The notes beneath the pieces were generated by a model that saw only the letters and a list, made by a program, of their open reading frames with translations, was not told where the DNA came from and did not search any database. Below, piece after piece: positions 7,926 to 17,314 of a stretch of 18,313 nucleotides of DNA; within the stretch, counting starts at the first letter, position 1; the number at the start of each line of letters is the position of its first letter. Source of the stretch: Candidatus Desantisbacteria bacterium CG1_02_38_46 (lineage in GTDB: Bacteria; Desantisbacteria; UBA1551; UBA1559); the NCBI GenBank assembly GCA_001871015.1, contig MNUO01000044.1, positions 1 to 18,313 on the forward strand. Reading direction: 5' to 3'. The position numbers and the translations under genes are program-made.

Positions 7926-8043
7926 AATATTACATCAATTGCCTTCGGCAACTGCGTTTATCCGCAAAACCTTATACGCCATTGCAAAACCTGAAATAGT
8001 GCATTATGCCTATGTTTTTGATGTGCCGATTTCAAAGAGATGA
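7926..8043 (+). pseudogene. Possible C-terminal gene remnant before the permease gene
   Basis: This gap has one open forward frame ending ...TLYAIAKPEIVHYAYVFDVPISKR with TGA at 8041-8043, immediately at the permease start. Coupled starts of this type are the rule in this window, so the frame may be the tail of a gene cut away when the accessory segment was inserted. It has no start codon with a ribosome binding site. A small hairpin TTGCC-TTC-GGCAA lies at 7939-7951, without a T-run. No family was recognised, and it may be plain intergenic DNA. Confidence 0.25.
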
Positions 8044-8045
8044 TT

Positions 8046-9017
8046 ATGTGGAATTATATTGCTCGACGTCTATTTATGATGATACCTGTATTATTTGGGA
8101 TAACTATTATTACATTTATTGTCATTCACCTTGCTCCGGGTAGTCCCACAGATATAGTTGCCCAGGCTGGTCCGAAAGTTTCTTTTGAAGCCAGAGAAAG
8201 GTTGACTAAACTCTATGGGTTGGACCAGCCTTTACATATTCAATATCTGAACTGGTTGAAGAGATTTATCAAGTTAGATTTTGGTTCTTCTTTTAAAGAT
8301 GACCGCCCCGTGATGGAAAAAATCCTGGAGCGTTTACCTGCCACTCTGTTTCTTGAAGGACTCTCCCTTTTTTTGATTTTCCTGATAGCAATACCTGTGG
8401 GTGTGCTTTCTGCTGCCAGACAATATTCTATTTTTGACAAATTCACAACGATTCTTGTTTTTATCGGTGTTTCGGTTCCAAGCTTCTGGCTCGCTCTTCT
8501 TTTAATGATTTCCTTCGGAGTGAAATTAAACTGGCTGCCGATTTCAGGTATGCGTTCCATTGGAAGTGAATACCTCCCAATCTGGGCAAGAACTATTGAC
8601 TACACTAAACATTTAATTATGCCTGTGTTCGTATCTGCTTTTGGCGGGATTGCTTCGTTATCTCGATATACCCGTGCAGGAATGCTTGAGGCAATCCGTC
8701 AGGACTATATCCGCACTGCCCGCGCAAAAGGATTGTCTGAGAACGTCGTGATTTATAAACATGCCCTTCGCAATGCACTCCTTCCTGTTATTACAATTGT
8801 TGGATTTTCTATACCTGGTTTAATCGGCGGAAGTTTTATAATTGAGACAATATTTGCCTGGCCAGGCATGGGAAGGCTTGGCTATCTTGCAATTATGGAG
8901 CGTGATTACCCATTGATTATGGGGGTTGGCGCTGTTGCTGCTTTTTTAACTTTACTGGGAAATTTGGTTGCAGATATTCTTTATGCATGGGCAGACCCCA
9001 GAGTACGATATAAATGA
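8046..9017 (+). CDS. ABC transporter permease, DppB/OppB family
   Basis: This 323-residue membrane protein is the first permease of a dipeptide/oligopeptide/nickel-type ABC importer. It has the usual start (MWNYIARRLFMMIPVLFGITIITFIVIHLAPGSP), a periplasmic segment (about 35-98) and five further membrane segments. The EAA-loop motif is clear (DYIRTARAKGLSENVVIYKHALRNALLPVI), and the C-terminus ends in WADPRVRYK. ATG 8046 is preferred because it aligns with the DppB N-terminus and follows AGAGA; ATG 8040 would add two residues. The second permease gene follows 15 bases later. The substrate cannot be fixed, because the binding protein that normally sets it is not encoded in the window. Confidence 0.9.
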   Translation: MWNYIARRLFMMIPVLFGITIITFIVIHLAPGSPTDIVAQAGPKVSFEARERLTKLYGLDQPLHIQYLNWLKRFIKLDFGSSFKDDRPVMEKILERLPATLFLEGLSLFLIFLIAIPVGVLSAARQYSIFDKFTTILVFIGVSVPSFWLALLLMISFGVKLNWLPISGMRSIGSEYLPIWARTIDYTKHLIMPVFVSAFGGIASLSRYTRAGMLEAIRQDYIRTARAKGLSENVVIYKHALRNALLPVITIVGFSIPGLIGGSFIIETIFAWPGMGRLGYLAIMERDYPLIMGVGAVAAFLTLLGNLVADILYAWADPRVRYK

Positions 9018-9032
9018 TGAGGATGTGGAGAT

Positions 9033-9854
9033 ATGTGGCGTAGATTTAAAAAGAATAAATTAGCAGTTGGCGGTGCAATAATTGTAGTTATTTTCTTTAT
9101 AATATCTTTGCTTACGCCAATCCTGTCTCCTCACCAGCCCAATGCTCAGAATTTATTAGAAAGATTGGCTCCGCCATCTGCCAGACATCTTTTTGGCACT
9201 GATGAATTGGGTAGAGATGTCTTTTCCAGGATTCTCTGGGGTTCCAGGATTTCTTTGAAAGTGGGTTTTGTAGCAGTTGGAATTTTCATTTTCATTGGGA
9301 CCCTGCTCGGGGCTATTTCAGGATATTATGGAGGATGGATTGATAATTTTATTATGCGTCTGGTTGATATAATGCTCTGTTTTCCAGATTTCTTTCTTAT
9401 CCTGATGGTTATTGCTGTGTTAGAACCAAATATAAATTATGTGATGGCTGTGATAGGGTTGGTTAGCTGGACCGGCGTTGCACGACTTGTGCGCGCTGAA
9501 TTTCTAAAACTGAAAAAGCAGGAATTTGTAGAGGCAGCAAGAGCATCGGGTTTAAGTGATATGAGGATAATTTTTCGACATATCCTTCCAAATGCTATAG
9601 CTCCAGTGCTTATCGCAGCAACTCTGGGCGTGGCTTCTGCAATACTTGTAGAATCCGGTTTGAGTTTTTTAGGTCTTGGCGTACAACCTCCAACTCCTTC
9701 CTGGGGAAATATTTTAACCAGTGGAAAGGATTATTTACTTCATGGTGCCTGGTGGCTTAGTGTATTCCCGGGGCTGGCTATTTTCATTACTGTTTTATCT
9801 TACAACCTGTTAGGTGAGGGTTTGAGGGATGCAATGGACCCAAGACTGAAATAG
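9033..9854 (+). CDS. ABC transporter permease, DppC/OppC family
   Basis: This 273-residue protein is the second permease of the importer. It starts with the DppC-type N-terminal helix (MWRRFKKNKLAVGGAIIVVIFFIISLLTPILSP) and the hallmark HLFGTDELGRDVFSRILWGSRISL. The transmembrane core and EAA loop (EFVEAARASGLSDMRIIFRHILPNAIAPVLI) follow, and it ends in LLGEGLRDAMDPRLK. These are complete family features and the length is normal. A GAGGA site lies about 9 bases before the ATG. It should pair with the DppB-like permease upstream and be powered by the ATPase encoded after the repeat cluster at 9878-10001. Confidence 0.93.
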   Translation: MWRRFKKNKLAVGGAIIVVIFFIISLLTPILSPHQPNAQNLLERLAPPSARHLFGTDELGRDVFSRILWGSRISLKVGFVAVGIFIFIGTLLGAISGYYGGWIDNFIMRLVDIMLCFPDFFLILMVIAVLEPNINYVMAVIGLVSWTGVARLVRAEFLKLKKQEFVEAARASGLSDMRIIFRHILPNAIAPVLIAATLGVASAILVESGLSFLGLGVQPPTPSWGNILTSGKDYLLHGAWWLSVFPGLAIFITVLSYNLLGEGLRDAMDPRLK

Positions 9855-9877: not shown

Positions 9878-10001
9878 GTAGTGGCAGAGATTGCTCTGCC
9901 ACAAAGTCGAGTAAACTCGCCCACTACAGTAGTGGCCCAGATTGCTCTGCCACAAAGTCGAGTAAACTCGCCCACTACAGTAGTGGCAGAGCTTGCTCTG
10001 C
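9878..10001 (+). repeat. Modular palindromic repeat, cluster 1 (2 full units + partial)
   Basis: Two exact 51-bp units in tandem (9878-9928 and 9929-9979) are followed by the first 22 bases of a third (9980-10001). Each unit has an outer arm GTAGTGG...CCACTAC enclosing two hairpins. The left one is GGCAGAGCTTGCTCTGCC or a variant; the right one is CGAGTAAACTCG. Where units meet, CCACTACAGTAGTGG forms another palindrome. Folded as RNA or single-stranded DNA, a unit can make a three-way junction. GGACGATT occurs at 9861-9868 and again at 10007-10014, flanking the cluster and possibly a target duplication. The cluster separates the dppC-like and dppD-like genes. Confidence 0.9.
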
Positions 10002-10022
10002 AAAAAGGACGATTGGTTAAAA

Positions 10023-11078
10023 ATGGAAAAATTACTGGAAGTAAAAGATTTACGGACATATTTTTACACCGACGATGGAATAATCAAAGCAGTAGATGGA
10101 GTGGATTTTTCCCTGGATGAGGGCGAGACATTAGGGTTGGTTGGAGAATCCGGATGCGGAAAGAGTGTTACAGCCCTGTCTATTATGAATCTTGTGCCAA
10201 GTCCAGGAAAGATTGTTGAGGGAAAAATTTATTTTAAGGGAAGGAATCTCCTGAATCTTGATGAAGAAGAGACAAGGAAAATAAGGGGCAATGAGATTTC
10301 AATGATTTTCCAGGACCCTTTTACTTCGTTGAATCCTGTTTTTACTATTGGCGAGCAAATTAAAGAGGCAATAGAAGTTCACAGTAGTGGCAGAGCTTGC
10401 TCTGCCACAAAGTCGAGTAAACTCGACCACTACAGTAGTGGCCCCCCCGTCTGCTTGTCGCAGACAAGCGGGGGGGCTACAAAAGAACAAGTTTTTAACA
10501 GAGTGGTAGAGTTGCTAAAGTTAGTGGAATTGCCATTTCCCGAACAGTATTATCGTTATTATCCTCATCAACTGAGCGGTGGAATGCAGCAACGCGCAAT
10601 GATTGCAATGGCACTTTCCGGCAATCCATCTTTACTCATCGCAGACGAACCTACAACCGCTCTGGATGTAACAATCCAGACGCAAATTATAAAATTATTA
10701 CAGAGGTTGCAGGCAAGATTAAATATGAGCATCATTTTGGTTACACACAATCTTGGGATTGTTGATGAGATAGCAAAAAGTGTTATTGTTATGTATTTAG
10801 GAAGGATAATGGAATACACATCCACAGAAGATTTATTTAAAAATCCCACCCACCCCTATACTCAGGGTTTATTGAATGCAATTCCAGGGGTGCATAGCGA
10901 GTCAAAGGAGGTGCCCAGGCTTTACGTTATCCCCGGTACAATTGGTTCACCTCTTAACCTGCCAAAGGCGTGTAGATTCTATCCACGCTGTGAAAAAAGA
11001 ATGAAAATTTGCCTTCAAGAAGAGCCACCTCTTAAAGAAGTTGCTACAAATCATTTAGTACGTTGCTGGCTGGCATAA
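10023..11078 (+). CDS. ABC transporter ATPase, DppD/OppD family, with in-frame repeat insertion
   Basis: This 351-residue ATPase would drive the importer formed by the two permeases upstream. Walker A GESGCGKS (41-48), Q-loop Q97 (FQDPFTSLNP), signature LSGGMQQ (184-190), Walker B LLIADEP (204-210) and switch H242 are all present. The oligopeptide/dipeptide C-terminal domain carries C317, C323 and C330 (ACRFYPRCEKRMKIC), plus C348 near the end. Between the Q-loop and the signature, about residues 121-154 (starting SSGRACSATKSSKL) are translated from palindromic repeat DNA and do not belong to the family. The frame is kept. Start 10023 is chosen because the family N-terminus begins there; 9993 would start within repeat sequence. 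No second ATPase (OppF/DppF) follows. Activity depends on the insertion being tolerated. Confidence 0.92.
   Translation: MEKLLEVKDLRTYFYTDDGIIKAVDGVDFSLDEGETLGLVGESGCGKSVTALSIMNLVPSPGKIVEGKIYFKGRNLLNLDEEETRKIRGNEISMIFQDPFTSLNPVFTIGEQIKEAIEVHSSGRACSATKSSKLDHYSSGPPVCLSQTSGGATKEQVFNRVVELLKLVELPFPEQYYRYYPHQLSGGMQQRAMIAMALSGNPSLLIADEPTTALDVTIQTQIIKLLQRLQARLNMSIILVTHNLGIVDEIAKSVIVMYLGRIMEYTSTEDLFKNPTHPYTQGLLNAIPGVHSESKEVPRLYVIPGTIGSPLNLPKACRFYPRCEKRMKICLQEEPPLKEVATNHLVRCWLA
10384..10481 (+). repeat. Modular palindromic repeat, cluster 2, inside the ATPase coding sequence
   Basis: One complete 51-bp unit (10384-10434) has left hairpin GGCAGAGCTTGCTCTGCC and a right hairpin lengthened to GTCGAGTAAACTCGAC. 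It is followed by a shortened second unit (10435-10481) of the other type. There the left hairpin is seven C (10442-10448) paired with seven G (10470-10476) around GTCTGCTTGTCGCAGACAAG. That unit lacks the right hairpin and closes with CTAC against its opening GTAG. The DNA is read through in frame as about 33-34 extra residues of the transporter ATPase. Confidence 0.92.
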
Positions 11079-11090
11079 AAAGGGGGACAA

Positions 11091-11378
11091 ATGAAGATAG
11101 ATAAAAAAACGGTAGAGTATATTGCGAACCTTGCAAGATTGGCGCTTACTGAAAAAGAGAAAGAATCATTTACCGGACAACTCGACAAAATACTCAACTA
11201 TATTGATAAATTAAATGCACTGGATACAAGTAACATTGAACCGACATTTCATGCAGTGCCGCTTAAAAATGTTTTTAGAGACGATGAGGTTAAGCCTTCC
11301 TTGACCCAGGAAAGAGCTCTGGCAATGGCACCTGAGAAAGACAGGAATTATTTCAAGGTTCCACGAATAATCGAATGA
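11091..11378 (+). CDS. gatC: Glu-tRNA(Gln)/Asp-tRNA(Asn) amidotransferase subunit C
   Basis: This 95-residue protein is GatC, the small subunit that stabilises the GatCAB complex, which converts Glu-tRNA(Gln) or Asp-tRNA(Asn) to the amidated forms. The family pattern is complete: KTVEYIANLARLALTEKEKE, the middle helix (QLDKILNYIDKLNALDTSNIEPTFH) and the C-terminal FRDDEVKPSLTQERALAMAPEKDRNYFKVPRII. The ribosome binding site AAGGGGGA stands ahead of the ATG, 12 bases after the ATPase gene. gatA and gatB are not next to it. Instead it is coupled by a four-base overlap (ATGA) to archease, so here it shares a transcript with RNA-repair genes. Confidence 0.95.
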   Translation: MKIDKKTVEYIANLARLALTEKEKESFTGQLDKILNYIDKLNALDTSNIEPTFHAVPLKNVFRDDEVKPSLTQERALAMAPEKDRNYFKVPRIIE

Positions 11379-11821
11379 AGAAATTCAAGATAATAGAACA
11401 TACGGCAGATGTTGGAATCGAGGCGTATGGCAGGAATTTAAATGAATTATTTGCCAACGCTGCCTATGGCATGTTCAGTATCATTACGAATCTCGACAAA
11501 ATTGGGGAAAAAAAAATAGTTAAAATTGAAATTTCACAATCCACGCTTGAAGATTTGATTCATTCATGGCTTGATGAATTATTATTTAAAGAGAGCGTAG
11601 ATGAAATATTATTCAGGAAGTTTGATGTCCAGATTTCGTTAAATAATTTTAAACAGAAGTTCAAGTTAGTCGGCAAAGCATTTGGCGAGAAGTTTGATTC
11701 AAAGAAACATCATCTAAAAACCGAAATTAAGGCGGTTACATATCATCAGCTGAAAATTGAAGAAATTCCTAAAAGAAAAGCAGGATCAATATATAAAACA
11801 AGGGTTATTTTTGATGTGTAA
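11375..11821 (+). CDS. Archease, activator of RtcB RNA ligase
   Basis: This 148-residue protein is an archease. The N-terminal HTADVGIEAYG (H9, D12) and FANAAYGMFSII are diagnostic, as are the DLIHSWLDELLF helix and the C-terminal KTRVIFDV, with its conserved acidic residue near the end. In studied systems archease speeds guanylylation of RtcB and broadens its nucleotide use, with acidic residues at both ends of the protein forming a metal site. The rtcB gene lies about 1.1 kb downstream, separated by one unrelated exported protein, so the pair is likely co-expressed. The start overlaps the gatC stop. Length is normal and no key residue is missing. Confidence 0.93.
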   Translation: MKKFKIIEHTADVGIEAYGRNLNELFANAAYGMFSIITNLDKIGEKKIVKIEISQSTLEDLIHSWLDELLFKESVDEILFRKFDVQISLNNFKQKFKLVGKAFGEKFDSKKHHLKTEIKAVTYHQLKIEEIPKRKAGSIYKTRVIFDV

Positions 11822-11834
11822 AGAGACAGGTTCT

Positions 11835-12863
11835 ATGTCCAATATTCTATGTTTAAGACTTGCAGGCTTGATTGCTGTCCTATGTTCACTATTCACTGTT
11901 TTAGAAGCACAGGAGACAGCTGCTTTATATGAAACACCGTCTATTTCTACAGTTCTTGAAACTCCGGTAGACCAGACATATGTAGAGACACAGGTTATTC
12001 GGACTTCCTCAGAAACGCCAGTGGAGGTAGTGCCTGCTCAGACGCCGATTCTTGCTCAGGCTCCATCTGTGCTTTCTTTAGTCCGTCCAGGGCTTTCACT
12101 TATGCCTACAGCTTATGTCAGGGTGAGTCCAAAGCATCCTGGAGAAACCGGGTTTAACAGCGATTTTTTGTTTAATTTTTACATTGGAGAAATTTACGAA
12201 TATATTAATAATAAACATAACTTTTTCACTCCGTACAGAATTTTTATGTTTGGGGTAGATACAAAGATATCATTTACCCTGGGGCAATTACTGAAGGGAA
12301 TTGGCATATTTTATGGGGAAGAATATGCCGTTGGGAAATTGTCAAATTTACTGAATTTTTTTGACCCTGGTTTCTGCAAACAAGAGCAGAAATACTTTCC
12401 TACTGTCGCAGCAGGATTAAGGGGGTGGCTGTTCCGCTCAATGGGTCCGTCTTTTGACCTTGCAGAAGCATTTGAAGGAGCACAGTGGATAACGGATTAT
12501 TATATTGTGGCAAGTAAAAAAATTGGAGATTACGGATTTCATGTTGGTTATGTTTATGGAAGTTTTATAAACAATTTTTTTAACGAAATAAAAAGAGCAA
12601 ACTACTTTAATCGAGGCCAGATGCGCAACTGGGATGTAGACAAGAGTTCGGATTCGCACACTCTGTTTGTTGGATTTGATATGAATGTTTCCTGGGGGAC
12701 AAAAAAGTTTATTGTGGAGGGTATATTTTCTTCCATCGACACATTTTTGATAAATACTTCAACGGGGCTGTGGGGATTTGACCTCGCATTCTTAAAAATT
12801 CCTACTGGATTTTCAATTATTGGATACTGGAGTTTCCGCTCTAATATGTTCACATTTTTTTAG
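11835..12863 (+). CDS. Exported protein, possible outer-membrane beta-barrel, unknown function
   Basis: This protein of about 342 residues is of unknown family. It starts with a likely signal peptide (MSNILCLRLAGLIAVLCSLFTVLEAQ). A low-complexity Thr/Pro/Glu/Val-rich spacer follows (about 27-85), containing loose ETP/VETP repeats. The C-terminal part (about 90-342) is rich in aromatic residues and alternating hydrophobic strands (FHVGYVYGSFINNFF, TLFVGFDMNVSWG, FSIIGYWSFRSNMFTFF). It ends in Phe, as outer-membrane barrels often do. The frame is open back to 11757, inside archease, but ATG 11835 gives the signal peptide and clears the archease stop. The TAG stop at 12861-12863 shares its last two bases with a repeat fragment, so the native end may have been altered. 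It stands apart from its RNA-repair neighbours. Confidence 0.6.
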   Translation: MSNILCLRLAGLIAVLCSLFTVLEAQETAALYETPSISTVLETPVDQTYVETQVIRTSSETPVEVVPAQTPILAQAPSVLSLVRPGLSLMPTAYVRVSPKHPGETGFNSDFLFNFYIGEIYEYINNKHNFFTPYRIFMFGVDTKISFTLGQLLKGIGIFYGEEYAVGKLSNLLNFFDPGFCKQEQKYFPTVAAGLRGWLFRSMGPSFDLAEAFEGAQWITDYYIVASKKIGDYGFHVGYVYGSFINNFFNEIKRANYFNRGQMRNWDVDKSSDSHTLFVGFDMNVSWGTKKFIVEGIFSSIDTFLINTSTGLWGFDLAFLKIPTGFSIIGYWSFRSNMFTFF

Positions 12864-12890
12864 TCGAGTAAACTCGACCACTACAGTAGT
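12862..12890 (+). repeat. Modular palindromic repeat, fragment 3
   Basis: This 29-base piece of the repeat family is the right hairpin GTCGAGTAAACTCGAC, the closing arm CCACTAC and the first bases (GTAGT) of a following unit. It fills most of the gap between the exported protein and rtcB. The preceding stop codon TAG overlaps its first two bases, and the rtcB ribosome binding site (GGAG, 12894-12897) starts just after it. Confidence 0.85.
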
Positions 12891-12902: not shown

Positions 12903-15900
12903 ATGGCACAGGAATGGAAGGGAAAACTTGAAAAAATTGATGATTACCGCTGGCGTCTTCCAAAAGAAGGCGGAATGCGCGTTCCTGGTCTGATCTATGC
13001 GGATGAAAAACTTCTAATAGATATAAAGAAAGAGCAGAGTTTAAATCAGGTAAGAAACGTTGCCCATCTCCCGGGTATCATCAGATATTCTATGGCTATG
13101 CCCGATATCCACTATGGGTACGGTTTCTGCATTGGCGGTGTAGCTGCAACCGATATAGAAAAAGGAGTAATTGTCCCGGGCGGGATCGGTTACGATATAA
13201 ATTGCCTTTTTGGAGATGCAAAAATTATGTGTGAGCATGGTTATCATATTCCATTAAGAGAATTTGAAAAGAAATGGGGGGATATAAATATAGCATCCAC
13301 AGAACTTTCTAAATCTTCTTCAGTGATTACTACTATCGCAAGATTTCTTAAAATAAAACCACAAAATCAAATTTATAAGTTAACCACTGAAAGTGGTAGA
13401 GAGGTAACAGCAACTGAAGACCATCCTTTTTGGACTCCTGATGGGATGATACCATTACGTGAATTAAGGGTTGAAGATGTTGTTGCTGTTCAGCATTTCA
13501 CTGGCGTCCCATACGAAGAGCCTTCTGAAAGAATTATTCTGAGTGAAGAAAAAATTAAGGCTATCCTTTTGAAATTTGAGAAAGGTTCTCAAGGTCATGG
13601 ATTGGAACAAACAATCATTCATTTTAAAAAAAGGAATTTGCTACCAATTAAATACGACTCATGGCAGGTTCCGTATATTTTAAAAATTATGGGTTATGTA
13701 TTTGGCGATGGGACGGTTTATTTTCAAGGTGGAAGAAGAAAGGGTGTGACATTATTCTATGGTAAACCTGAGGATCTGGAAGATATAAGAAAAGATATTT
13801 TGAATCTCGGGTTTACTCCTTCCAGAGTATATTCTCGTCTTAGAGATTGCAAGATAGACACCTATTATGGCCATTATAAATTTACTCACAATGAACATAT
13901 GATGAAAGTAGTTGGAACATCTTTTGCAGCCTTGTTGATTTCACTCGGTGTTCCTGCTGGTAGGAAAGTCAATCAGAAATATGGAGTTCCAGCATGGATT
14001 TTTGATGCACCACTATGGCAGAAGCGGTTGTTCCTTGCTTCATTTTTTGGAGCGGAAATGTCCACTCCCAAATCCATTCCAAATGAATATAGCTTTCATT
14101 CTCCCTGTGTTTCAATGAACAAGCGGAAAGAGATTTCAGGAGATGCCAGACATTTTTTTGAGCAAGTTGGCAAACTTTTATTAGAATTTGGAGTTAAAAT
14201 ACAAATGATAGGTGAAAGAGAGGAGTGTGAAAACAAAGATGGACAAATTTCACATCGTTTGCGTTTAAGTGTTTGTAACGACACCAAAAACTTAATCAGG
14301 TTTTATGAAAATGTTAATTTTGAATATAACATAGAGAAAAGAAATGAAAGCAATGTGGTTATTCAATATTTGAAAATGAAGAATAAAGTAATCAAAAAGA
14401 GAACATCCACAGCTCAATTAGCTCTAACGATGCATCAGTCAGGTAAGAGTCCTTCAGAAATTTACTCTGAGCTTAGTTCAGAATTTGTCAACAAGAGATT
14501 TCTGGAAAGGTCACTTTATGAGGGAAGAGATGAACCGAGGATTGCTTACAATTTTCCTAAATATTCAGACTACAGAAAAGAGATTACTGCCGGATTAGAA
14601 AACAGTATTTATGTCTGGGATAAAATTGAGAAAATTGAAGAGGTAGAATTTAATGATTATGTTTATGATTTTACAGTAACACATAAAGACCACAATTTTA
14701 TTGCAAATAATTTTGTTGTTTCAAATTGTGGCGTCAGACTTTTAAGAACCGATTTAAAATATGACGATATTAAAGATAAAATTCGCCAGTTGGTAGATGC
14801 ACTTTTTTACACCATTCCTTCTGGTGTTGGTTCAAAAGGAAGCATACATTTAACTCATGACGAATCAGAAAAAGTAATGGTAAAAGGTGCAAAATGGGCA
14901 GTGGATAAGGGTTATGGATGGAAAGAAGATTTAGAGTTTACAGAAGAAAATGGTGCAATGCCTGGCGCAAATCCATCCAGGGTCAGTCAGAGAGCAATTG
15001 AGCGTGGATTGAGGCAATTAGGGACACTGGGAGCAGGAAATCACTTCCTTGAGATACAAGTTGTTGAGGAAATTTATGAAACTAATGTTGCTAAGATTTT
15101 CGGATTGGAAAAGGGTCAGATTACAGTAATGATTCATACTGGTTCCAGAGGATTTGGATATCAAGTATGCGATGATTCTTTAGGAATGATGCAGCGTGCT
15201 ATTCAAAAATATGAGATTGGCCTTCCTGACAGACAACTTGCCTGTGCTCCTATAAATTCTCAGGAAGGCCAGGATTATTTTCAGGCAATGGCTTGTGCAG
15301 CAAATTATGCCTGGGCGAATCGGCAGTGTATTATGCACTGGACAAGAGAAGCATTTGAAAAGATACTGGGGAAGAGCGCAAAGTTGCTGGGAATGAAATT
15401 GGTTTATGATGTGGCGCACAACATTGCTAAATTTGAAGAGCATAATGTGGAAGGCAATAAGGTTAAAGTTTGCGTGCATAGAAAAGGTGCGACGCGTGCT
15501 TTTCAAGCCTATAATCCGGCCATCCCAAAGGAATATATTTCTGCAGGGCAACCTGTAATAATTCCTGGCGATATGGGAAGAAATTCATATGTCCTTGCAG
15601 GCACTCCACTTGCAATGGAACAGACATTTGGGACAGTATGTTTTACAGGAGACACACACATAATTACTAATAAGGGAATAATTTCCTTAAAAAATATTTA
15701 TGAGAGGTTTAATGATAAACAAGAAGATTTTTTAGTTGTCTCTCTAAATAAAGATTTAAAATTAGAATGGAAACCTGTAGTAAGGGCAACGAAAAGGATG
15801 TCTGGGGTTGCACAATTTTTGGTTTCTCAGACAGGCAGATCTGCAATGAGTACAATTAAAGCTACTCCTGAACATAAATTTGCAATTCTGGAAAATTTAG

Positions 15901-17114
15901 GATTGACATACAGAGAAGCAAAAGAAATAGTGAACAGAAATGAAATGATTTGCGCGATTGATAATATTCCTCCTTTGGCAACAAGGCATGATCCTAAATT
16001 AGGTTATTTATTAGGAGCATTAGCAAGCGATGGATATGTGAGAATTTATGGCAATAAAAGACATGGAAGTATACTGTTTACACAAAAGAAAGATGAAGCA
16101 AAGTTAGAATTTATTAATTCTGTCCAAAAATGTTTTAAGGAAAAATTCAATTTAGAATTAAAAGAAAAACGCACTTATAGAAGTAGAGGAATTATTAGAG
16201 GGAAATTAGTAGAGGGAGTTGCTACAGAATTTATCTGTAACAGTAAATATCTCGCTGAAGAGTTACTATTAAAGATGAAAAATTTATCCCAGTGGGTTTT
16301 AAATGTAGACAAAGAAACCGCACTGCAATTCTTGGCAGGAATTATTGATGGTGACGGTACTTTTAATCCAAAACATAGAGTGATTGATATATTTGCCGGT
16401 GACGAGGATTTAGAAATAGGGAAGGCTATATTGGTTGCGTGTTTAAAAAACAGAATTCTTCCTTATGTTTCAAAGCAACGAGGAAATTGTTTTATATTTC
16501 AGATTTCAGAACAGTTTAACGAAGTGTTCAAAAGAACTAAAAGAGTAAAGGGTGAGGTGCACCCAAGAAAATATGGTGTAAAATTATTTGCAATAAGACA
16601 ACTTTTGGGAGAAATGAAAGATGTAAAATGGCCATTTAGCCCCAGGATTGACAGGAATACTTTTATGGACAGTGTAAAAATTCAAAAATATCTTTATCAG
16701 TTTGATGAATGTGCTAAAAATAATTTCTTAAAGATAATAAATAGCGATCTTAGAATGGAGAGAGTTAAAATAGTAAAGGAATTGGGGATTAAGGATGTTT
16801 ATAATATTGAAGTTGAAGATAGTCACAATTATGTAGTGTTGACAGAGACTTTCCTCCCATTAGTTGTGAAAAATTGTCATGGTGCAGGAAGGGTGATGTC
16901 CAGGCACGAGGCAATCAGAGTAAGCCGTGGAAGGTCAATTGTTAAAGAACTTGAAGGCAGGGGGATAATTGTTCGCTGTGCTGAAATGGAAACTCTAATG
17001 GAAGAAATTCCAGACGCCTATAAAAATGTAAATGATGTTGTCAATGTAATTCACAATGCTGGTCTTTCAAAGAAAGTTGCAAAGATGAGACCCCTCGGTG
17101 TTATTAAAGGCTAA
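12903..17114 (+). CDS. rtcB: RNA-splicing ligase RtcB precursor with two inteins
   Basis: The 1403-residue precursor encodes RtcB, the GTP- and Mn2+-dependent ligase joining 2',3'-cyclic phosphate or 3'-phosphate ends to 5'-OH ends. Removing two inteins (101-608 and 913-1324) leaves 483 residues, the usual length of archaeal-type RtcB. Active-site residues, in precursor numbering, are D98, C609 once spliced (GGIGYDIN-CGVRLL), H714 (GNHFLE), H745 (IHTGSRG), H839 (YDVAHNIAKFE) and H1326 (CHGAGR), the histidine that carries GMP. After splicing these become C101, H206, H237, H331 and H406, close to Pyrococcus RtcB. Both inteins interrupt catalytic motifs, so no ligase can form without splicing. 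The start follows GGAG at 12894. Archease is encoded in the same run of genes. Confidence 0.95.
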   Translation: MAQEWKGKLEKIDDYRWRLPKEGGMRVPGLIYADEKLLIDIKKEQSLNQVRNVAHLPGIIRYSMAMPDIHYGYGFCIGGVAATDIEKGVIVPGGIGYDINCLFGDAKIMCEHGYHIPLREFEKKWGDINIASTELSKSSSVITTIARFLKIKPQNQIYKLTTESGREVTATEDHPFWTPDGMIPLRELRVEDVVAVQHFTGVPYEEPSERIILSEEKIKAILLKFEKGSQGHGLEQTIIHFKKRNLLPIKYDSWQVPYILKIMGYVFGDGTVYFQGGRRKGVTLFYGKPEDLEDIRKDILNLGFTPSRVYSRLRDCKIDTYYGHYKFTHNEHMMKVVGTSFAALLISLGVPAGRKVNQKYGVPAWIFDAPLWQKRLFLASFFGAEMSTPKSIPNEYSFHSPCVSMNKRKEISGDARHFFEQVGKLLLEFGVKIQMIGEREECENKDGQISHRLRLSVCNDTKNLIRFYENVNFEYNIEKRNESNVVIQYLKMKNKVIKKRTSTAQLALTMHQSGKSPSEIYSELSSEFVNKRFLERSLYEGRDEPRIAYNFPKYSDYRKEITAGLENSIYVWDKIEKIEEVEFNDYVYDFTVTHKDHNFIANNFVVSNCGVRLLRTDLKYDDIKDKIRQLVDALFYTIPSGVGSKGSIHLTHDESEKVMVKGAKWAVDKGYGWKEDLEFTEENGAMPGANPSRVSQRAIERGLRQLGTLGAGNHFLEIQVVEEIYETNVAKIFGLEKGQITVMIHTGSRGFGYQVCDDSLGMMQRAIQKYEIGLPDRQLACAPINSQEGQDYFQAMACAANYAWANRQCIMHWTREAFEKILGKSAKLLGMKLVYDVAHNIAKFEEHNVEGNKVKVCVHRKGATRAFQAYNPAIPKEYISAGQPVIIPGDMGRNSYVLAGTPLAMEQTFGTVCFTGDTHIITNKGIISLKNIYERFNDKQEDFLVVSLNKDLKLEWKPVVRATKRMSGVAQFLVSQTGRSAMSTIKATPEHKFAILENLGLTYREAKEIVNRNEMICAIDNIPPLATRHDPKLGYLLGALASDGYVRIYGNKRHGSILFTQKKDEAKLEFINSVQKCFKEKFNLELKEKRTYRSRGIIRGKLVEGVATEFICNSKYLAEELLLKMKNLSQWVLNVDKETALQFLAGIIDGDGTFNPKHRVIDIFAGDEDLEIGKAILVACLKNRILPYVSKQRGNCFIFQISEQFNEVFKRTKRVKGEVHPRKYGVKLFAIRQLLGEMKDVKWPFSPRIDRNTFMDSVKIQKYLYQFDECAKNNFLKIINSDLRMERVKIVKELGIKDVYNIEVEDSHNYVVLTETFLPLVVKNCHGAGRVMSRHEAIRVSRGRSIVKELEGRGIIVRCAEMETLMEEIPDAYKNVNDVVNVIHNAGLSKKVAKMRPLGVIKG
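13203..14726 (+). mobile_element. Intein 1 of RtcB (LAGLIDADG type, 508 aa)
   Basis: The intein runs from C101 (CLFGDAKIMCEHGY) to N608, with C609 as the first downstream residue. Splicing motifs are visible: block A at the N-terminus, block B TATEDH (H174) and block F DFTVTHKDHNFIANN. The terminal block reads VVSN|C, with Ser where a penultimate His is usual. A homing endonuclease is present: first motif MGYVFGDG (263-270) and second LASFFGAE (378-385), each with an acidic residue. The insertion point, just before the metal-binding cysteine of GYDIN|C, is the known RtcB intein site of archaea such as Pyrococcus. Confidence 0.93.
15639..16874 (+). mobile_element. Intein 2 of RtcB (LAGLIDADG type, 412 aa)
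   Basis: The intein runs from C913 (CFTGDTHIITNKGI) to N1324 (LPLVVKN), followed by C1325 of CHGAGR. Block B is TPEH (H991) and block F is VYNIEVEDSHNYVVLTE. The penultimate residue is Lys instead of His. The endonuclease motifs are strong: LLGALASDG (1036-1044) and LAGIIDGDG (1144-1152), so homing activity is plausible. It sits one residue before the guanylylated histidine. It differs in sequence from intein 1, so it came by a separate invasion, not a duplication. Confidence 0.93.
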
Positions 17115-17115
17115 G

Positions 17116-17282
17116 GTAGTGGCCCCCCCCGTCTGCTTGTCGCAGACAAGCGGGGGGGCAATAAAGGCGAGTAAACTCGCCCACTACAGTAGAGGCCCCC
17201 CCGTCTGCTTGTCGCAGACAAGCGGGGGGGCAATAAAGTCGAGTAAACTCGCCCACTACAGTAGTGGCAGAGCTTGCTCTGC
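17116..17282 (+). repeat. Modular palindromic repeat, cluster 4 (2 long units + partial)
   Basis: Two long-type units (17116-17188, 73 bp; 17189-17260, 72 bp) are followed by a 22-base partial short-type unit (17261-17282). The long units have GTAGTGG (GTAGAGG in the second). A C/G hairpin follows, with 8 or 7 C, the core GTCTGCTTGTCGCAGACAAG and 7 G. Then come CAATAAAG, the right hairpin and CCACTAC. The one-base length difference is the extra C. The first unit has GGCGAGTAAACTCGCC as a perfect right palindrome. The cluster begins two bases after the rtcB stop. Like cluster 1, it ends with a lone left hairpin, 32 bases before the next start codon. Confidence 0.92.
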
Positions 17283-17314
17283 AATTTTTGTAGGAATTTT
17301 TAAGGAGGCTATTT

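Follow-up and report, generated by a model that had tools for sequence, protein, structure and literature searches.

How does a conserved transporter ATPase gene come to carry a cluster of palindromic repeats inside its ATPase region, and what becomes of the residues that the repeats add? We addressed this question in an 18,313-nt stretch (the window) from a metagenome bin of 1.73 Mb that is 88% complete. The gene is of the oppD/dppD type, has no other close copy in the assembled genome and lies near three further REP loci:

8040-9017 and 9033-9854, oppB/oppC-type permease genes, both upstream of the ATPase gene
9878-10003, + strand, tandem array of forward and inverted REPs with a 51-bp period, between oppC and oppD
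10023-11078, + strand, oppD/dppD-type ABC transporter ATPase gene with the insert, 351 aa (ABC_tran PF00005 and oligo_HPY PF08352)
10384-10480, + strand, inserted cluster of repeats, GTAG...CTAC, with the in-frame translation (S)SGRACSATKSSKLDHYSSGPPVCLSQTSGGA
10384-10408, + strand, REP 1, GTAG followed by a TGGCAGAGC-TT-GCTCTGCCA hairpin
10412-10433, - strand, REP 2, an inverted copy that ends in CCACTAC, GTAGTGGTCGAGTTTACTCGAC on the - strand; with REP 1 it forms a REPIN/BIME-like doublet
10435-10480, + strand, REP 3, GTAGTGG fused to a C7-GTCTGCTTGTCGCAGAC-AAGC-G7 hairpin, a mosaic present twice more at 17116-17237
12861-12884, - strand, single inverted REP flanked by rtcB and the gene that ends at 12863
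17116-17286, + strand, extragenic mosaic REP array with two C7/G7-hairpin REPs, just 3' of rtcB

The rtcB gene itself (12903-17114) encodes an RtcB RNA ligase in 1403 codons with two intein-like insertions (intein splicing domain, LAGLIDADG), and an archease gene lies nearby at 11375-11821.

A repeat cluster is read in frame within oppD

The oppD frame starts with an ATG at 10023, and its stop codon ends at 11078. Its product has the Walker A (residues 41-48), Q-loop (Q97), LSGG signature (LSGGMQQ from residue 184), Walker B and H-loop motifs and the C-terminal oligo_HPY region of an OppD/DppD ATPase, with DEPTTALD at 208-215. The PF00005 match spans residues 25-212 and includes the insertion. 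Alignment with orthologs bore out the motif placement originally proposed, with the insert after Q97 and before LSGGMQQ, and all of these motifs intact.

The insert measures 97 bp, from the GTAG at 10384 to the CTAC at 10480, and supplies 32 repeat-derived codons. The original prediction had placed a repeat of about 98 bases at 10384-10481; the repeat is indeed present but ends one base earlier. The ACA present on each side might suggest a target-site duplication, but this reading was dropped, as it would imply a net insert of 98 bp, out of frame. As had also been proposed, the cluster consists of one 51-bp unit, which we see as a REP/inverted-REP doublet (REP 1 plus REP 2), and a variant C/G-hairpin unit, the C7/G7 REP. 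It is read through without a stop or a frame change, encoding peptides that include SSGRACSATK and LDHYSSGPPVCLSQTSGGATK. The REP 1 palindrome reads GTAGTGGCAGAGCTTGCTCTGCCAC. The insert is predicted to fold as RNA with -59 kcal/mol (z = -7.3), which none of 200 shuffled sequences equalled. A query of 131 bases matched 76 places in the genome at E ≤ 0.001, and the core of the C7/G7 hairpin of REP 3 recurs without GTAG at 8 further sites. The 21-nt apical hairpin GTCTGCTTGTCGCAGACAAGC is conserved at 10447-10467, 17129, 17201 and eight other genome sites; it caps a variety of C-rich/G-rich stems and turns up in varied repeat settings, giving the impression of a graft into other palindromes.

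Relatives lack the segment, which is predicted to form a disordered loop

In the comparison with related DppD/OppD proteins that was proposed with the original prediction, the inserted segment is absent from all aligned relatives. Across homologs from 17 other genomes, the invariant H120 is separated from the next helix by 6-7 residues, with one longer exception (G039), whereas OppD of the window has 34; the net gain over most relatives is thus 27-28 residues and not the 33-34 first suggested. The corresponding stretch in the same-order ortholog reads EEAIKVHIPGSAKNREAARRAVEML. From these orthologs, which are distant (the closest is 65% identical), we infer insertion into a pre-existing oppD, with approximate borders.

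A single-sequence AlphaFold2 prediction of OppD reached a mean pLDDT of 31 and was replaced by one based on a 23-row alignment of the window OppD with relatives from a virus collection (mean pLDDT 88.8, pTM 0.87). The best PDB match of the resulting model was E. coli OppD (8z21_C, TMt 0.92). In the model, helices 109-121 and 154-167 are confident, and residues 124-150, with pLDDT <50, form the sole extended region of low confidence. The loop anticipated from the sequence is thus predicted to be a disordered connector between confident helices, and alignment and model together support an in-frame insertion within the helical subdomain that leaves the ATPase motifs intact.

The repeat is a GTAG-tagged REP

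A perfect 7-bp stem with a 2-nt loop comes directly after the tag at 173 of 612 GTAGTG sites, compared with 0 of 575 sites of the reversed tag GTGATG. These hairpins comprise 17 different stems, each self-complementary. A relaxed search yielded 234 matches in 139 clusters over 1.64 Mb, against a background of about 44 in the reversed genome. Inverted REPs pair with a short spacer, as at 10384-10408 and 10412-10433; layouts of the +- and +-+ kind recur, and arrays are mosaic. The repeat thus combines a GTAG end with a short palindrome, a high dispersed copy number and a mostly extragenic location. On these tag and hairpin statistics, it matches the published description of GTAG-tagged REPs, and the inverted pairs correspond to REPINs/BIMEs. 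Known REPINs are mainly extragenic.

REPs of this family are open in 4-5 of the six frames. There was no support for a REP structure designed to avoid stops, as random hairpins behind GTAG commonly give the same number of open frames. In other genomes, the REP core is present at 14 places in G001, which is of the same order, and at one place each in a Brocadiales bin and a Zixibacteria bin. None of five REP-core contexts inspected (L183, L184, L039, L041 and L042) lies inside a recognisable conserved gene.

REPs lie in frame in about 20 other conserved genes

Using a trained hexamer coding score, we sorted REP clusters according to the coding status of the sequence on either side, covering 1.64 of 1.73 Mb. 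Twenty clusters, a few of them chance hairpins, had both flanks coding in one open frame. A more permissive pass gave 25 in-gene clusters; about 20-23 are firm among about 108 classifiable clusters, though ORFs of at least 200 aa cover 77% of the sequence. Clusters left out of the firm set are C92, a chance hairpin, and C3 and C125, probably 5' leaders, together with C18, which was initially assigned to the wrong strand and whose real host gene is ispE.

The hosts include thiL (two REP sites), tsaB, an Mrp-type antiporter subunit gene, thrC, asd, topA, dprA, ispG, trmD, ispE, trpE, trpG, tsaD, miaB, a second trpE/pabB, mfd and aroA-cmk, among others, and most have Pfam matches through the insert or on both its sides. 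The same repeat is in frame in about 20 other conserved genes, mostly single-copy and housekeeping, in keeping with the original prediction of a family that can add segments to proteins. No second copy of thrC, asd, aroA, topA, dprA, ispG, trmD, tsaD, miaB or ispE was detectable in the genome, so the function is presumably carried by the interrupted genes. With such single-copy housekeeping hosts, the data fit an OppD enzyme that is still functional despite its insert.

Among the classified clusters (1.64 Mb), no intragenic copy breaks the frame or brings in a stop. Nine clusters show a frame change (7) or a stop (2) between coding flanks. Each of the nine marks a boundary between two different genes, which we take, from reading the sequences, to be for example ptsH/ptsI, ftsW/murD, hypA/hypF and dxr/rseP. 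After random insertion, an open frame would be expected in about 2/9 of cases (one third for length times about two thirds for stops). Two forward phases are open, and among the inserts the polar one, SGRVYSA, is more frequent than the hydrophobic one, VVAEFTLL (14 versus 3, or 12 versus 2 without doubtful cases; p ~0.01), and CSGRVYSA-type peptides recur among the inserts.

In ispE (L087:4875-5060), about seven tandem REP-derived units (SRINSATT) add some 60 residues. A further recurrent peptide type, SGTTPMVTSGCPGSA, occurs within IspG and also upstream of Ogt, and ThiL contains a stretch resembling it (L102:13808-15040, L170:794-1552 and L044:3309-4616), which suggests another repeat family read in frame.

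Other palindromic families and candidate mobilisers

The genome holds a second palindromic family, CTCAGGACTTTAGTCCTGA / GTAACTCAGGACTTTAGTCCTGA with variant stems, in 105 clusters (for example, L062:12534-12648), and a third, GGTGTCAGGTCTTGACA / GGTGTCAGGTCTTGACAAATGACAAAT, in 49 clusters, many of them intergenic (for example, L053:8422-8464). Neither has a firm in-gene case. The in-gene share of the GTAG family differs from those of the 105-cluster and 49-cluster families (Fisher p ~1e-7 and 3e-4, respectively). Only 2 of 6 frames of the 105-cluster family are open, which accounts for part, not all, of its absence from genes. The GTAG family's presence in 20 or more mostly housekeeping genes, compared with none or at most one for the other two, might reflect an element or mobiliser whose insertion mode is compatible with coding DNA, or a peptide that is especially well tolerated; we regard this reading as unlikely.

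A search of the 88%-complete genome and of G001 found no RAYT gene flanked by GTAGTG REPs. The PF01797 matches at C60 and C109 have no such flanking REPs; these two RAYT-like Y1_Tnp genes (L186 and L185) lie between other inverted repeats, of the GGGTCAGACCTCAAC and AAGGGGACG types, and the L185 gene has an internal stop. A third Y1_Tnp match, at C53, is an IS200-like fragment at a contig edge with a REP about 350 bp away.

Origin and fate of the inserts

These findings are very probably explained by untargeted insertion of REPs into a pre-existing oppD and other genes, with disruptive copies purged and the survivors translated as tolerated loops. REP copies would insert regardless of reading frame, with a RAYT-type (TnpA-REP) single-strand transposase as the probable agent, and selection would eliminate insertions that shift the frame, bring in stops or break the fold. 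The remaining copies would be translated as short, mostly polar, disordered loops. In OppD, the loop would bridge a pair of helices in the helical subdomain, at a place where relatives too differ in length, with little expected effect on ATP binding and hydrolysis. That only about one-fifth of clusters are genic despite the 77% ORF cover is what the loss of most insertions into genes would produce. With at least 20 copies in frame and none out of frame, the reading frame appears to matter, which argues that the insert is most likely translated. The bias towards the polar phase (12-14 versus 2-3) points to selection on the protein.

Other explanations can be weighed against the same observations. 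The repeats might be retained as useful protein segments, such as a regulatory or binding loop, and serve as a source of new modules. The recurrence of one peptide in about 20 proteins and the favoured phase speak for this, yet the hosts and the places of insertion are unrelated, several phases and both orientations are used, the OppD insert is predicted by AlphaFold2 to be unstructured, and the number of open frames equals that of random hairpins of this kind; we consider such a role very unlikely. The stability of the insert hairpins and the need for host gene products to work would also suit removal of the inserts before or during translation, by self-splicing, RNA processing or ribosome bypassing as with the yeast mitochondrial byp elements, leaving proteins of normal length. 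Frame and stops would then be of no consequence, yet no intragenic copy violates either, and the coding phase is skewed to the polar peptide, making removal still less probable. Least likely of all is an assembly or binning artefact at the repeat. Repeats do cause misjoins and the source is a metagenome bin, yet both halves of OppD are in one frame with their motifs intact, as are the halves of about 20 other genes, and chimeric joins would not respect the frame.

Comparison with known systems

Palindromic repeats in frame within genes are a known phenomenon, of which this genome is a rich additional case in a poorly sampled lineage; the search set contained a single further genome of its order. 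Di Nocera et al. (2013, PMC3733652) described GTAG-tagged REPs in frame within conserved genes of several bacteria, most richly in Opitutus terrae; intragenic copies commonly encode 20-30 residues and at most 82. The repeats described here share with them the GTAG at one end, the short hairpin, the arrangement as singles, inverted dimers or clusters and the in-frame location in conserved genes. In contrast, the stems are GCAGAG/CTCTGC, GTCGAG/CTCGAC and others, possibly distinct from those of the 24 published families, the hosts are mostly metabolic and tRNA-modification genes, and no REP-flanked RAYT was found. The 51-bp unit resembles REPINs/BIMEs (Bertels and Rainey 2011, PMC3116915) in having two inverted REPs with a short spacer and in forming tandem or mosaic arrays, and differs in the lack of a detected RAYT association.

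A precedent similar in effect comes from the Rickettsia palindromic elements (RPEs; Ogata et al. 2000, 2002), which, as summarised in PMC2229807 and PMC3767692, are in-frame palindromic selfish DNA first reported in 19 genes and encode solvent-exposed segments; for one host protein, guanylate kinase, both translation and activity were demonstrated. The original prediction had drawn this parallel while noting a different sequence, and rightly so: RPE-4/6 are CGTC-tagged (PMC3733652), whereas the tag here is GTAG. RPEs are palindromes of about 100-150 bp, whereas the units here are at most 51 bp, so by the descriptions of tag and size the two are set apart, and neither a CGTC tag nor a 100-150 bp palindrome of the RPE-1 to 3 type characterises the present units. 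The prediction's picture of an in-frame repeat family stands; the novelty it implied was too strong, as reports from 2000 to 2013 had already described protein-coding palindromes, in-frame GTAG REPs among them. ERIC/RU and the 107-bp Correia elements, which are likewise short, have open frames and are fused in frame to genes (Delihas 2007, PMC2229807), are MITEs with terminal inverted repeats and target duplication, unlike the GTAG REPs analysed here.

Compared with these systems, the present genome offers a rich independent case, outside Rickettsiales, of selfish repeats turned into protein sequence in single-copy housekeeping enzymes. Its approximately 20 host proteins offer material for studying how proteins accommodate inserts of 8-60 residues and which of the reading phases persists.
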